NCBI GenBank assembly: GCA_020725195.1
Contig: DYFL01000008.1
Span: 1-64,000, forward strand
DNA from: Hydrogenophilus sp.
GTDB taxonomy: Bacteria; Pseudomonadota; Gammaproteobacteria; Burkholderiales; Thiobacillaceae
DNA: 64,000 bases
Direction of reading: 5' to 3'
A model generated the notes under the pieces. It saw nothing but the letters and a program-made list of their open reading frames with translations, did no database searches and had not been told where the DNA came from. Below, piece by piece: positions 1,450 to 57,884 of the stretch (its first letter is position 1; each line of letters starts with the position of its first letter). The position numbers were made by a program, and so were the translations under genes.

Positions 1450-4371
1450 ATGCAGCCTGCCGCCGAGTTTCGCCCCGCCAGCCCCGATGTTTCCGTGACC
1501 GGAAGCCACGAGACCGCATCCAGCAATACCGCCCAGTACGCCCAGTACAAGATCATCCGCCGCAACGGGTCGGTGGTCGGCTTCGAGCCCTCCAAGATCG
1601 CCGTGGCCCTGACCAAGGCCTTCATCGCGGTCAACGGCTCCCAGGCGGCGGCCTCCGCCCGCATCCGCGAGCTGGTGGAGAGCCTCACCGGCAGCGTGGT
1701 CTCCGCCCTGGTGCGGCGCCAGCCCGAGGGCGGCACCTTCCACATCGAGGACGTGCAGGACCAGGTGGAACTCGCCCTCATGCGCTCCGGCGAGCACGAG
1801 GTGGCCCGCGCCTACGTGCTGTACCGGGAGCGCCGCGCCGAGGAGCGCGCCAGGCAGCGCCAGGGCCAGGCCGAGGCGCACGCCCTCTTCTGCGTCGAGG
1901 ACGGCGAGCGCCGGCCCCTCGAACTCGACCGCCTCACCGACCTGGTGCGCTCGGCCAGCGAGGGTCTGCCCGAGGTGAGCCCCGAGCCCATCCTCCAGGC
2001 CACCCTGCGCGACCTCTACGACGGCGTGCCCATGGACGAGGTCAGGAAGTCGCTGATCCTCTCCGCCCGCTCCTTGATCGAAAAGGACCCGGACTACAGC
2101 CATGTGACCGCCCGCCTGCTGCTCGACAGCATCCGCCGCGAGGTGCTGGGCGAGAGCGCCACCCAGGCCGAGATGGCCACCCGCTACGCCGAGCACTTCC
2201 CCGCCTACATCAGACAGGGCATCGAGGCCGAGCTGCTGGACGAGCGCCTGATGCAGTACGACCTGCCGCGCCTCGCCGCCGCGCTGGACGCCGGCCGCGA
2301 CCTCAAGTTCCAGTACCTGGGCCTGCAGACCCTGTACGACCGCTACTTCCTGCACATCCAGGAACGCAGGATCGAATTGCCCCAGGCCTTCTTCATGCGC
2401 GTGGCCATGGGCCTGGCACTCAACGAGATCGACCGCGAGGCGCGCGCCATCGAGTTCTACCAGGTGCTCTCCAGCTTCGACTACATGTCGAGCACGCCGA
2501 CGCTCTTCAACGCCGGCACCCGCCACAGCCAGCTCTCCAGCTGCTACCTCACCACCATCCCGGACGACCTGGACGGCATCTACCAGGGCATCAAGGAAAA
2601 CGCCATGCTCCAGAAGTTCGCCGGCGGCCTGGGCAACGACTGGACCCGCGTGCGCAGCTTGGGCGCCTACATCAAGGGCACCAACGGCAAGTCCCAGGGG
2701 GTCGTGCCCTTCCTCAAGGTGGCCAACGACACCGCCGTGGCGGTGAACCAGGGCGGCAAGAGGAAAGGGGCGGTGTGCGCCTACCTCGAGACCTGGCACA
2801 TGGACATCGAGGAGTTCCTGGAACTCAGGAAGAACACCGGCGACGACCGCCGCCGCACCCACGACATGAACACCGCCAACTGGGTGCCCGACCTCTTCAT
2901 GAAGCGGGTCATGGAGAACGCCGACTGGACCCTGTTCTCGCCCTCCGACGTACCCGACCTGCACGACAAGTACGGTGCCGACTTCGAGGCGGCCTACACC
3001 CGCTACGAAGAGAAGGCCGCGCGCGGCGAGCTCAGGCTCCACAAGAAGATCCCCGCCGTCTCCCTCTGGCGCAAGATGCTCTCGATGCTCTTCGAGACCG
3101 GCCACCCCTGGATCACCTTCAAGGACGCCTGCAACGTGCGCTACACCAACCAGCACGTCGGCGTGGTGCACTCCTCCAACCTCTGCACCGAGATCACCCT
3201 GCACACCAACGACAACGAGATCGCCGTGTGCAACCTGGGCTCGGTGAACCTCATCAACCACCTGAGCGAGAACGGCCTCGACCTCGACAAGCTGAAGCAG
3301 ACCATCCGCACCGCCATGCGCATGCTCGACAACGTCATCGACATCAACTTCTACTCGGTGGGCAAGGCGCGCAACTCCAACCTCAGGCACCGCCCCGTGG
3401 GCTTGGGGCTGATGGGCTTCCAGGACGCCCTGCATCGCCTCCGCCTGCCCTACGCCAGCACCGACGCCGTGGAATTCGCCGACCGCACCATGGAGGCCGT
3501 CGCCTACTACGCCTACTGGGCCTCCACGGAGCTCGCGGAGGAGCGCGGCCGCTACTCCAGCTACAACGGCTCGCTGTGGAGCCGCGGCATCCTGCCTCAG
3601 GACTCGCTCAAGCGCCTGGCCGAGGAGCGCGGCGGCTACCTCGAGGCCGACCTCTCCGAGACCCTGGACTGGTCCGCCCTGCGCGCCCGCATCGCCCAGC
3701 ACGGCATGCGCAACTCCAACTGCCTGGCCATCGCCCCCACCGCCACCATCGCCAACATCGTCGGCGTCTCGGCCTCCATCGAGCCCACTTATCAAAATCT
3801 CTTCGTGAAATCGAACCTGTCCGGTGAATTCACCGTGGCCAACCAGCACCTGGTGCGCGACCTCAAGGCCCTGAACCTGTGGGACGAGGTCATGGTGGGC
3901 GACATCAAGTACTTCGACGGCTCCCTGTCGAAGATCGACCGCATCCCCGAGGGCCTGCGCAGCCTCTACGCCACCGCCTTCGAGATCGACCCCGTGTGGC
4001 TGATCGAGGCCGGCGCGCGGCGGCAAAAGTGGATCGACCAGGCCCAGAGCCTCAACCTCTACTTCCACGGCGCCAGCGGCAAGAAGCTCGACGAGACCTA
4101 CAAGCTCGCCTGGCTGCGCGGCCTCAAGACCACCTACTACCTGCGCGCCCTGGGCGCCACCCACGCCGAGAAGTCCACCGGCCGCGGCGGCGAGCTCAAC
4201 GCCGTGCCGACGGGAGGAATGTCCGGCGGCATGGCTGCCGCCGGTGGCGGCCTGGGCCTGGGCGGCGCGGCGAGCGCGCAGCCCCACCTCCCCGAACCCG
4301 AGCTCGTCGGCCGCGCCTGCACCCTGCGCCCCGGCGACCCCGGCTTCGAGGAATGCGAGGCCTGCCAGTAA
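1450..4371 (+). CDS. nrdA: Ribonucleoside-diphosphate reductase, alpha subunit (class Ia)
   Basis: The large subunit of 973 residues reduces ribonucleoside diphosphates to deoxy forms, with NrdB supplying the radical. The N-terminus carries an ATP-cone (about 33-125) for overall activity control and a second cone-like segment (about 140-230), which makes it longer than the E. coli protein (761). The active-site cysteines can be seen in the contexts QLSSCYL, SNLCTEI and AVCNLGS. The C-terminal CEACQ (Cys969, Cys972) is the redox shuttle pair. The ATG at 1450 follows a GAGGAG ribosome site by 7 nt. It forms an operon with nrdB, 160 nt downstream, and is preceded by NrdR and FNR-like sites. Confidence 0.97.
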   Translation: MQPAAEFRPASPDVSVTGSHETASSNTAQYAQYKIIRRNGSVVGFEPSKIAVALTKAFIAVNGSQAAASARIRELVESLTGSVVSALVRRQPEGGTFHIEDVQDQVELALMRSGEHEVARAYVLYRERRAEERARQRQGQAEAHALFCVEDGERRPLELDRLTDLVRSASEGLPEVSPEPILQATLRDLYDGVPMDEVRKSLILSARSLIEKDPDYSHVTARLLLDSIRREVLGESATQAEMATRYAEHFPAYIRQGIEAELLDERLMQYDLPRLAAALDAGRDLKFQYLGLQTLYDRYFLHIQERRIELPQAFFMRVAMGLALNEIDREARAIEFYQVLSSFDYMSSTPTLFNAGTRHSQLSSCYLTTIPDDLDGIYQGIKENAMLQKFAGGLGNDWTRVRSLGAYIKGTNGKSQGVVPFLKVANDTAVAVNQGGKRKGAVCAYLETWHMDIEEFLELRKNTGDDRRRTHDMNTANWVPDLFMKRVMENADWTLFSPSDVPDLHDKYGADFEAAYTRYEEKAARGELRLHKKIPAVSLWRKMLSMLFETGHPWITFKDACNVRYTNQHVGVVHSSNLCTEITLHTNDNEIAVCNLGSVNLINHLSENGLDLDKLKQTIRTAMRMLDNVIDINFYSVGKARNSNLRHRPVGLGLMGFQDALHRLRLPYASTDAVEFADRTMEAVAYYAYWASTELAEERGRYSSYNGSLWSRGILPQDSLKRLAEERGGYLEADLSETLDWSALRARIAQHGMRNSNCLAIAPTATIANIVGVSASIEPTYQNLFVKSNLSGEFTVANQHLVRDLKALNLWDEVMVGDIKYFDGSLSKIDRIPEGLRSLYATAFEIDPVWLIEAGARRQKWIDQAQSLNLYFHGASGKKLDETYKLAWLRGLKTTYYLRALGATHAEKSTGRGGELNAVPTGGMSGGMAAAGGGLGLGGAASAQPHLPEPELVGRACTLRPGDPGFEECEACQ

Positions 4372-4531: not shown

Positions 4532-5674
4532 ATGCTGAACTTCGACGAAGACCTGACCCCCGCCGCGCCGGCCGGCAGCCGCGGCTTCGACCCCGCCGAC
4601 ATCACCTTCGGCGCCGCGGCCGCCGGCGCCGCCCCCCAGGAAGCAGACGCCAAGTTCCGCCGCGTGCGCATGGAAGACAAGCGCATCATCAACGCCACCG
4701 CCGACGTCAACCAGCTCGTCCCCTTCAAGTACAAGTGGGCCTGGGAGAAGTACATCGCCGCCTGCGCCAACCACTGGATGCCGCAGGAAGTGAACATGAA
4801 CCGCGACATCGCCACCTGGAAGGACCCGAACGGGCTGACCGAGGACGAGCGCCGCGTGGTCAAGCGCAACCTGGGCTTCTTCGTCACCGCCGATTCCCTG
4901 GCCGCCAACAACATCGTGCTCGGCACCTACCGCCAGATCACCGCGCCCGAGTGCCGCCAGTACCTGCTGCGCCAGGCCTTCGAGGAGGCCATCCACACCC
5001 ACGCCTACCAGTACATCGTCGAGAGCCTGGGGCTCGACGAGGGCGAGATCTTCAACGCCTACCACGAGGTGCCGTCCATCCGCGCCAAGGACGAGTTCCT
5101 GCTGCCCTTCATCGACGTGCTGGCCGACCCCAACTTCAAGACCGGCACGCCCGAGGCCGACCAGACCTTCCTCAAGAGCCTGATCGCCTTCGCCTGCATC
5201 ATGGAGGGCCTCTTCTTCTACGTCGGCTTCGTGCAGATCCTGGCCATGGGCCGGCAGAACAAGATGACGGGAGCCGCCGAGCAGTACCAGTACATCCTCC
5301 GCGACGAGTCCATGCACTGCAACTTCGGCATCGACATGATCAACACCATCAAGCTCGAGAACCCGCACCTGTGGACCAACGAGTTCAAGGCCGAGCTCAA
5401 GGGCATGTTCCAGCGCGCCGTCGAGCTCGAATACGCCTACGCCGAGGACACCATGCCCCGCGGCGTGCTGGGGCTCAACGCCCCCATGTTCAAGGAATAC
5501 CTGCGCTTCATCGCCAACCGCCGCGCCACCCAGATCGGCCTGGACGAACTCTTCCCGGGCGCGACCAACCCCTTCCCGTGGATGGCGGAGATGATCGATC
5601 TGAAGAAGGAGAAAAATTTCTTTGAAACAAGGGTGATTGAATACCAGACGGGCGGTGCGCTCAGTTGGGACTAA
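4532..5674 (+). CDS. nrdB: Ribonucleoside-diphosphate reductase, beta subunit (class Ia)
   Basis: The small subunit of 380 residues builds the di-iron tyrosyl radical used by NrdA. Iron ligands align as Asp121 (TADSLA), Glu152 and His155 (EEAIHTHAY), then the later Glu/His pair in LRDESMHCN. Tyr159, four residues after His155, sits at the E. coli Tyr122 radical position. Overall sequence resembles the Chlamydia-like branch, but that class Ic enzyme has Phe at the radical site and Glu at the first ligand. Tyr and Asp here therefore point to class Ia. It is the second gene of the nrdAB operon, with a GAAGGAG ribosome site upstream. Confidence 0.96.
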
Positions 5675-56921: not shown

Positions 56922-57311
56922 CTAGTTCTCGGTAAAGCGGTGGATCTGCCGCCGGCCCTTCTTGGTCGGGCGGCCCCTCAGGCCGGCGGCAGGCTCGGCC
57001 GAGACCCTGCGCTCGGCCGCCCGCGCCTCGCGCCGCTCGCGGCTCGCCGCGTCCTCCTCGTAGAGGGTGCGGGCGACGGGGGCGGGGCCGCGCCGGTCGG
57101 CGAGCGCCGCCACGGTGATCGCCCATTCCTGCTCGCCGGCGTGGATGAGGAGCCGGTCGCCGGGACGGACCTCCTTGGCGGGCTTCACGCGCTCGCCGTT
57201 CACCCTGACCCTGCCGCCCTCCACCGCCTGCGCGGCGAGGCTGCGGGTCTTGAAGAAGCGCGCGGCCCAGAGCCACTTGTCGATGCGCAGCCGTTCCTGC
57301 CCCTCGCCCAT
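56922..57311 (-). CDS. hslR: Ribosome-associated heat shock protein Hsp15 (S4 domain)
   Basis: 129 residues: an S4 RNA-binding domain (RLRIDKWLWAARFFKTRS, GGRVRVNGERVKPAKEVRPG), then a basic C-terminal tail (GRPTKKGRRQIHRF). Hsp15 binds stalled 50S subunits carrying nascent chains. The first 15 codons and 91 bp upstream form the unit of a 137-bp tandem array, so the annotated ATG at 57311 was made by a duplication junction. A GAGG 4 nt before it overlaps the stop of the preceding mini-ORF. The ancestral start was probably the ATG at 57722 (see array). Confidence 0.88.
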   Translation of the reverse strand: MGEGQERLRIDKWLWAARFFKTRSLAAQAVEGGRVRVNGERVKPAKEVRPGDRLLIHAGEQEWAITVAALADRRGPAPVARTLYEEDAASRERREARAAERRVSAEPAAGLRGRPTKKGRRQIHRFTEN

Positions 57312-57316
57312 GTGCC

Positions 57317-57448
57317 TCAACCTGCCTTCGCCTGGGCCGCAGCATCCCGCTGCGGGGTCGCATCCCCGCAAGCGGGGCCCCTGCTCCGCCCTCCGCGGTC
57401 GCCCCAGAGCCACTTGTCGATGCGCAGCCGTTCCTGCCCCTCGCCCAT
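57317..57448 (-). CDS. Leader mini-ORF 3 (43 aa)
   Basis: Same protein as mini-ORF 2. Its TGA at 57317-57319 lies 5 nt before the ATG of full-length hslR, an arrangement suited to termination-reinitiation. Expression is unproven. Confidence 0.35.
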   Translation of the reverse strand: MGEGQERLRIDKWLWGDRGGRSRGPACGDATPQRDAAAQAKAG

Positions 57449-57453
57449 GTGCC

Positions 57454-57585
57454 TCAACCTGCCTTCGCCTGGGCCGCAGCATCCCGCTGCGGGGTCGCAT
57501 CCCCGCAAGCGGGGCCCCTGCTCCGCCCTCCGCGGTCGCCCCAGAGCCACTTGTCGATGCGCAGCCGTTCCTGCCCCTCGCCCAT
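57454..57585 (-). CDS. Leader mini-ORF 2 (43 aa)
   Basis: Starts MGEGQERLRIDKWLW and ends AAAQAKAG. Stop TGA, 5 nt, then the ATG of mini-ORF 3; GAGG overlaps the stop. Expression is unproven. Confidence 0.35.
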   Translation of the reverse strand: MGEGQERLRIDKWLWGDRGGRSRGPACGDATPQRDAAAQAKAG

Positions 57586-57590
57586 GTGCC

Positions 57591-57722
57591 TCAACCTGCC
57601 TTCGCCTGGGCCGCAGCATCCCGCTGCGGGGTCGCATCCCCGCAAGCGGGGCCCCTGCTCCGCCCTCCGCGGTCGCCCCAGAGCCACTTGTCGATGCGCA
57701 GCCGTTCCAGTTGCATTTGCAT
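57591..57722 (-). CDS. Leader mini-ORF 1 (43 aa), original hslR start
   Basis: Begins MQMQLERLRIDKWLW with AGGA 7 nt upstream. It then leaves the hslR frame into the palindromic part of the array and stops. It stops 5 nt before the ATG of mini-ORF 2. It probably represents the ancestral Hsp15 N-terminus cut off by duplication. Confidence 0.4.
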   Translation of the reverse strand: MQMQLERLRIDKWLWGDRGGRSRGPACGDATPQRDAAAQAKAG

Positions 57723-57884
57723 CCCCCCATCCTAATGCAATGCTTCACGCCATATGGAACTTCATGTGCGGGCGCCCACTATGGGCCCCTCCCCCTTCAA
57801 GGGGGAGGTTGGGAGGGGGATGGGGTTGCATTGATCCCGAGTCCATCACACCCCCGTGCGGCGGTCTTTGTCTACATTGAAGGC
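57709..57884. other. Divergent region between hslR array and methyltransferase gene
   Basis: Contains the ATGs at 57716 and 57722 that open mini-ORF 1 on the minus strand, and a CT-rich hairpin of the dispersed family (about 57786-57826). Promoters for both directions should lie here but none is obvious. Confidence 0.5.

Follow-up and report, generated by a model that had tools for sequence, protein, structure and literature searches.

Based on the layout of the sequence, on its copies in related genomes and on the reading frames that run through them, we propose that the tandem array at the start of hslR probably derives from a small mobile element akin to the mycobacterial interspersed repetitive units (MIRU; Supply et al. 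1997, via PMC12548453), which acts as a translational relay and has been multiplied to a 137-bp array. A GC-rich palindromic element of about 100 bp without a protein of its own, both MIRU-like and REP-like, would have inserted 15 codons inside hslR, keeping the native start on the left and giving the gene body on the right a second start, namely a duplicated 32-nt piece behind a new leader with a Shine-Dalgarno-like GAGG, an ATG and three codons; this leader would have arrived with the element. Unequal recombination or slippage would then presumably have amplified element and duplicated piece, 137 bp together, into a row of identical tandem copies. A ribosome loading at the native site would read through 43 codons, terminate 5 nt ahead of the following ATG and start again there, and three such rounds would bring it to hslR; we propose that this relay of translation is why the host tolerates the element.

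The hslR array and the probable native start

The window, that is the whole stretch of DNA analysed, comprises 64,000 nt of a draft genome of 108 contigs (G000), and all array features lie on its minus strand (Table 1). TRF places a tandem array at 57266-57708, with a period of 137 and 3.2 copies that match at 100% without indels; it scores 886, the runner-up in the window reaching 74. The first-pass annotation had described a 137-bp unit repeated 3.2 times, and its coordinates agree with the sequence, TRF and the ORF list; the sequence and the ORF list likewise bear out the three 43-codon ORFs, each ending in a TGA 5 nt ahead of the next ATG, with GAGG lying over the TGA. The hslR product matches NCBIfam PRK10348.1 with an E-value of 4.8e-30 and 104 bits, under the curated cut-off of 148, and contains a Pfam S4 domain above cut-off; judged by these profiles, the window gene is Hsp15-like.

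Table 1. Features of the hslR array in the window
Feature	Position	Strand	Remarks
Mini-ORF 1	57591..57722	-	MQMQLERLRIDKWLWGDRGGRSRGPACGDATPQRDAAAQAKAG, 43 codons + TGA; passes through core copy 1; from sequence and ORF list
Mini-ORF 2	57454..57585	-	MGEGQERLRIDKWLW..., 43 codons, TGA 5 nt ahead of next ATG
Mini-ORF 3	57317..57448	-	MGEGQERLRIDKWLW..., 43 codons, TGA 5 nt ahead of hslR ATG
hslR, present frame	56922..57311	-	129 aa, Hsp15-like, S4 domain; profile matches
GC-rich palindromic core, copy 1	57616..57676	-	GCGACCGCGGAGGGCGGAGCAGGGGCCCCGCTTGCGGGGATGCGACCCCGCAGCGGGATGC; dispersed in relatives
Core, copy 2	57479..57539	-	
Core, copy 3	57342..57402	-	
Target-complementary arm, last unit	57332..57340	-	GCGGCCCAG; exact complement of CTGGGCCGC at 57262-57270
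Same arm, other two units	57469-57477 and 57606-57614	-	GCGGCCCAG
Host target in hslR	57262..57270	-	CTGGGCCGC; junction between 57266 and 57265
Duplicated piece of hslR start	57266..57297	-	32 nt, identical to 57677-57708
Orphan copy of duplicated piece	57677..57708	-	adjoins probable native start

The top copy had been taken as the probable ancestral hslR start and the present start as a later product. The former is probably right: G083, whose hslR is without the element, starts MQAEIERLRIDKW, which is close to MQMQLERLRIDKW of the window's top copy (translated by eye), and the start of mini-ORF 1 is probably the native, orphaned hslR start. Other relatives differ at the hslR N-terminus (MDKLRIDKW in G020 and G080). 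The present start looks acquired later, the first four codons of MGEGQERLRIDKW, the ATG and the next three, being located in the new leader, left of the duplicated piece. A C-rich palindromic repeat, CCCTCCCAACCTCCCCCTTGAAGGGGGAGGGG (minus strand), is located at 57786-57817, just upstream of the first hslR start.

We considered 109 hslR loci, a set that counts G000 and G004 twice and includes two G139 loci, two genomes that do not belong to the family and some loci at contig ends, where the upstream sequence is short. Among them, the full structure is found in G000, G029 and G036, with the same junction and the same 137-bp spacing, a diverged version with a spacing of 125 in G136, and a right-end remnant at the same offset in G008; the G021 locus looks by eye like a deletion scar. 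The comparison of copy number among relatives, which had been suggested as a check, gives three units in G000 and one each in G029 and G036. Identical 137-bp units are not reliably countable from short reads, and the number three is that assembled in the 108-contig draft; the layout of first start, core and second start recurs in relatives. As for the age of the insertion, the equal spacing and the unalignable leader would favour one old event, and the conserved core would favour turnover or constraint. An insert of a different kind splits hslR after about 21 codons in the single-contig genome G002 (L039:2327-2594), where 268 bp of MITE-like sequence are bounded by perfect 26-bp inverted repeats, AGAGCCTGTCTCATAAAATCCTGTGG.

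Dispersal and anatomy of the core element

The array had been read as a private tandem duplication. This was not borne out: the core of the unit belongs to a dispersed palindromic element family, and the layout seen at hslR is also that of sdhA in this genome and of hypD and kdsA in others, with a related one at dsrM/dsrK and mirrored ones at the ends of folE2 and rho. Core matches occur in 57 of the 117 family genomes at E <= 0.001 (25 of these at E <= 1e-8, many of the remaining matches spanning only ~30 nt of the central hairpin) and in 39 of 300 genomes drawn from the order at E <= 1e-6, the window's own genome being included in both counts. The exact central pattern occurs in at least 115 stretches in named contigs; among the 80 matches listed, the labels are mostly Betaproteobacteria, Burkholderiales or Proteobacteria, and the isolates Thiobacillus thioparus DSM 505 (L133) and Sulfurisoma sediminicola BSN1 (L152) are represented. 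Many copies are in tandem, with spacings near 110 or 134-146 and one to four units per site. For instance, L161 has four units at a spacing of 106, L122 three at 108 and L067 at least three at 145, and the single-contig genomes G261 and G327 carry a multi-unit array with diverged units and an array with a core spacing of 140, respectively. Plasmids searched with a 1-kb query gave only two weak matches (67-73%), viral contigs contain the core at one locus (L193), and the Rfam 15 covariance models returned two snoRNA matches only (E 4.1 and 4.9, far below cut-offs). The folding of one unit is unexceptional for its composition (z -1.56).

The whole 137-bp unit has no other strong match in its own genome (next best E 0.052). 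When searched with a covariance model of the ATGA class, this genome yields the hslR copies and further ones, including a pair 137 bp apart; with model R1 at E <= 0.0016, three copies are counted at hslR, two at sdhA and one at bioB, a count that may miss diverged copies. The sdhA pair forms a second array at the start of the gene (contig 7, 4554-4866, L387; TRF period 137, 2.3 copies, 98%). Its first ATG, at 4554 of contig 7, shares an ATGA with the upstream stop and is followed by GTG starts at 4691 and 4828; at both of these the stop of a 46-codon mini-ORF overlaps the start as GTGA. Among the 28 sdhA starts placed in this genome and its relatives, the duplicate exceeds the threshold only in the former, with weak hints under threshold at L396, L403 and L404; two of the 30 loci (L412, L414) were not placeable. 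The bioB copy is an ATGA-class element on contig 5 (~2860-3010, L388), between an upstream gene and bioB, whose frame enters bioB without a stop and adds 40 residues ahead of the first bioB Met.

At hslR, hypD, sdhA, kdsA, folE2 and rho, the core lies inside a gene edge that is duplicated, and in all gene-internal sites read the functional gene body is on the right and the orphan copy of the edge on the left, in the orientation of the core. At hslR the duplication covers 32 nt; aligned duplicated pieces elsewhere inside genes measure 20-94 nt. Gene starts are occupied at hslR (G000, G029, G036 and, in diverged form, G136), hypD (G004, G018, G020, G071), kdsA (G135) and sdhA (G000), and gene ends, by an antisense core, at folE2 and at rho (G008); rho and kdsA were named by eye, without a family search, and hypD, folE2 and DsrK were matched by fragments only, under curated cut-offs. 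Insertions in folE2 were read in G009, G010, G101 and G138 and by coordinates are also present in G008, G018, G020, G069 and G071; nine of the 106 genomes with a folE2 match have the core, the other folE2 loci read being without it. For hypD, 28 loci were read by eye (4 filled, 24 without core), two of the 30 (L244, L249) being not placeable.

To the right of the core, 8-12 nt are complementary to the host at the junction in 13 of 14 gene-internal cases. The longest exact complement averages 9.6 nt over these 14 cases, which represent six genes and should not be counted as 14 independent events, and which include the failing case (hypD of G020, 5 nt), against 5.0 nt in a control of 152 pairs between different genes, where 8 nt or more were reached in 8 pairs. 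The arm follows the host allele, with GCGGCCCAG for CTGGGCCGC in hslR of G000 and GCGGCCCATA for TATGGGCCGC in that of G029, and with AATTTCGAG in folE2 of G009 and AACTTCGAG in that of G010. A single terminal-inverted-repeat model for all copies was set aside, since the arms vary with the host gene. Across 37 rows of the ATGA class, the slot and the seven to eight bases that precede TGAGCAG pair in register, and pairing drops sharply after position 8; there are 32 double-change cells as against 4.9 +/- 1.9 in shuffles (0/500) and at most 11 in slid controls, in a register that was picked after viewing the sequences and with some rows from one genome or from orthologous sites. A register-free test on 109 loci gives an own mean of 7.05 versus 5.74 when swapped, an effect that is real and modest.

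Frames and junctions at occupied gene starts

The first-pass annotation had described the mini-ORFs as laid out for reinitiation into hslR, and the sequence bears this layout out. In all eight insertions at hslR and hypD the frame from the orphan start is open, its stop lying anywhere from a 4-nt overlap with the new start to 5 nt before it; at sdhA the entering frame is likewise open to the new start, and in kdsA of G135 an entering frame of 45 codons ends ATGA on the new start. At the kdsA locus L160 the starts are 139 nt apart, there is no relay stop and two unread bases lie inside. Mini-ORF and gene overlap by 4 nt at 20 of 21 dsrMK junctions, at three of the four hypD sites, at hslR of G029 and G036, at sdhA and at kdsA of G135; the window's hslR, with its 5-nt gap, is unlike most other sites. 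Of the 11 gene-start cases, nine have a start-to-start length that is 2 mod 3 (137 in four, 140 in three, 134 and 125 in one each), the two others being 141 in G071 and 139 in L160, and the folE2-end lengths (140, 141, 144, 145-146) are without this regularity. An open frame alone is weak evidence, because composition shuffles keep the open frame and an allowed stop in 50-74% at five 4-nt-overlap sites, although in only 4-9% at G000, G136 and G071. In G000 the duplicated piece stops short of the first 12-14 nt of the frame. Taken as a sequence pattern, the regularity of frame and length at gene starts points to selection on coupling.

The junction of dsrM and dsrK in Thiobacillus was read in 30 of 40 genomes with a dsrK match, 10 being left out. 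Nine junctions are empty, the dsrM stop directly overlapping the dsrK start, nine have the core and 12 have other extra sequence. There are none, one or two cores per junction, with clean empty and filled sites in one genus, and in the two-unit arrays the units differ from each other. Unlike those at gene-internal sites, the dsrMK elements sit at the start codon, and their left arm is host sequence, since it is found in empty sites too. In the 21 junctions with extra sequence, which measures 29-287 nt and contains the core or not, the frame opened by dsrM's ATGA stops exactly on dsrK's ATG in 19 cases and reaches it through two successive frames in L219 (20 of 21 in total), L204 being the sole exception. 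These junctions, which keep the frame and the 4-nt overlap over such a range of lengths, constitute a natural experiment that suggests selected translational coupling. A different palindromic insert, GAAAACGAAGTTTCGGCGCAGGCTAACTTGC-like, is nested in the element at L199, L202, L206 and L218; L202 and L218 exceed the length of one unit by 66 nt and keep the frame.

On a dsrK tree (a quick tree, with a long-branch warning), well-supported branches force at least four changes between empty and filled; the label 'filled' clusters no better than in shuffles (142/500), and the tree was used for forced changes only. We infer mobility because empty and filled sites coexist and because of these forced changes. 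The sites together show how a repeat element can occupy the starts of the conserved genes hslR, sdhA and hypD without destroying them, and such mini-ORF chains may be annotated as odd N-termini.

Origin of the array and comparison with known elements

That replication slippage alone duplicated the hslR start in tandem, privately and without a mobile element, would account for the perfection of the array and for the lack of another strong match to the whole unit in its genome, but the core at other genes and in other genera and the related 137-bp array at sdhA of the same genome largely contradict it and make it very improbable, slippage still being likely for the step from one unit to three. 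Somewhat less improbable, yet still quite unlikely, is an old cis-acting RNA element (an attenuator or a start-region switch), vertically inherited at a few genes, whose stem is kept by compensatory change: at orthologous sites the core is far more conserved than the leader, the spacing is equal in G000, G029 and G036, at hslR and folE2 the arm varies with the host allele, and there is covariation, whereas clean empty and filled sites inside one genus, the occurrence at several unrelated genes, the antisense copies at folE2 and the range of one to four units per site argue against it. The mobile relay element has its own difficulties. Even orthologous sites have no conserved leader between arm and start, an unexpected feature in a unit that transposed recently; the equal 137-bp spacing at hslR across genera also fits one old insertion with a constrained core; antisense cores are present at folE2 gene ends, where a relay does not apply; and kdsA of L160, dsrMK of L204 and the bioB element fused in frame are exceptions to the relay. 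We nevertheless consider it the probable origin of the array.

Two further alternatives are compatible with the mobile relay element. We regard it as rather unlikely that the three units are an assembly product and that the strain has one unit or many: the draft in 108 contigs and the identity of the units speak for this, and the arrays with differing units elsewhere (G261 in a single contig, the two-unit dsrMK junctions) against it. As for the arm, it may serve as a guide, have been copied during insertion or result from later template-switch correction. Quasipalindrome correction by template switching is an established process, and the arm is placed where a hairpin would put it, so that a mutational by-product, in which template switching in an imperfect palindrome copies the host flank after insertion and the arm is neither guide nor function, is possible, if doubtful; the pairing of the ATGA class ends sharply after eight positions, however, and the arms at hslR, hypD and sdhA match the intact target across the junction, beyond the left flank. 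It seems unlikely that the arm is a guide, the element selecting its site through pairing of 7-12 nt with the host gene, with lineages homing to the same edges (hslR, hypD, folE2, dsrMK) in several genera and bringing a replacement gene edge and a frame that keeps the host gene translated. If true, we would be dealing with a small homing element that needs no protein, is guided by sequence and has its own translational relay built in. Since the arm matches its host, choice of the target by pairing is open to direct test.

Among known elements, MIRU are described as having a mini-ORF coupled to the downstream gene by a 4-nt overlap and as inserting at the start codon (PMC12548453). An overlap of this size is seen at most other sites here, the window's hslR having the 5-nt gap instead; the hslR element, on the other hand, lies 15 codons inside its gene, others are inside hypD, sdhA, kdsA, folE2 and rho, and the palindromic core, the duplicated start, the antisense insertion at gene ends, the target-complementary arm and the mostly betaproteobacterial hosts also depart from that description. 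Compared by description only, we do not file the hslR element as a MIRU because it is inside the gene and has a duplicated start and a host-matched arm. The GTAG and CGTC REP families, with their RAYT transposases, are described as short palindromes often located beside genes, some inside ORFs or supplying a stop codon (PMC3733652). The elements studied here are likewise short palindromes near genes, and some class members have GTAG at the left foot (by eye), but the hslR unit is without a GTAG/CGTC foot tag, is longer and includes a duplicated gene edge, and the copy number in its own genome is not high. A RAYT/Y1 transposase was rejected as the mobiliser, Y1 transposases (PF01797) being equally common with and without the core (40 of 57 core-bearing versus 40 of 60 core-free genomes, hand count); the window's genome has two Y1 matches, on other contigs.

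Rickettsia palindromic elements lie inside ORFs (PMC3733652), in frame within the host protein. They resemble the present family in being palindromic and translated with host genes, whereas here the duplicated start restores the protein and the element becomes a separate mini-ORF. The enterobacterial RU-1/2/3 are described as MITE-like units of 100-170 bp, some translated at gene ends, with TA target duplications and terminal inverted repeats (PMC2759123), and that description, unlike the sites here, includes no duplicated gene start or relay. Compared with MITEs in general, the inverted arms (hslR, hypD, folE2, dsrMK) vary with the host and are without constant element sequence, and in place of a short constant target duplication we find ~6-9 nt at dsrMK, 20-94 nt at gene-internal sites and 32 at hslR. 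A search of open-access papers by element sequence strings and by topic found no paper on this element family.

Longer elements, with the core and a related second hairpin, are present at L059-L062, L072 and L075, several of them having CCTAGAAACCGCAGTT-like inverted ends; these are possibly a parent or a fusion form.
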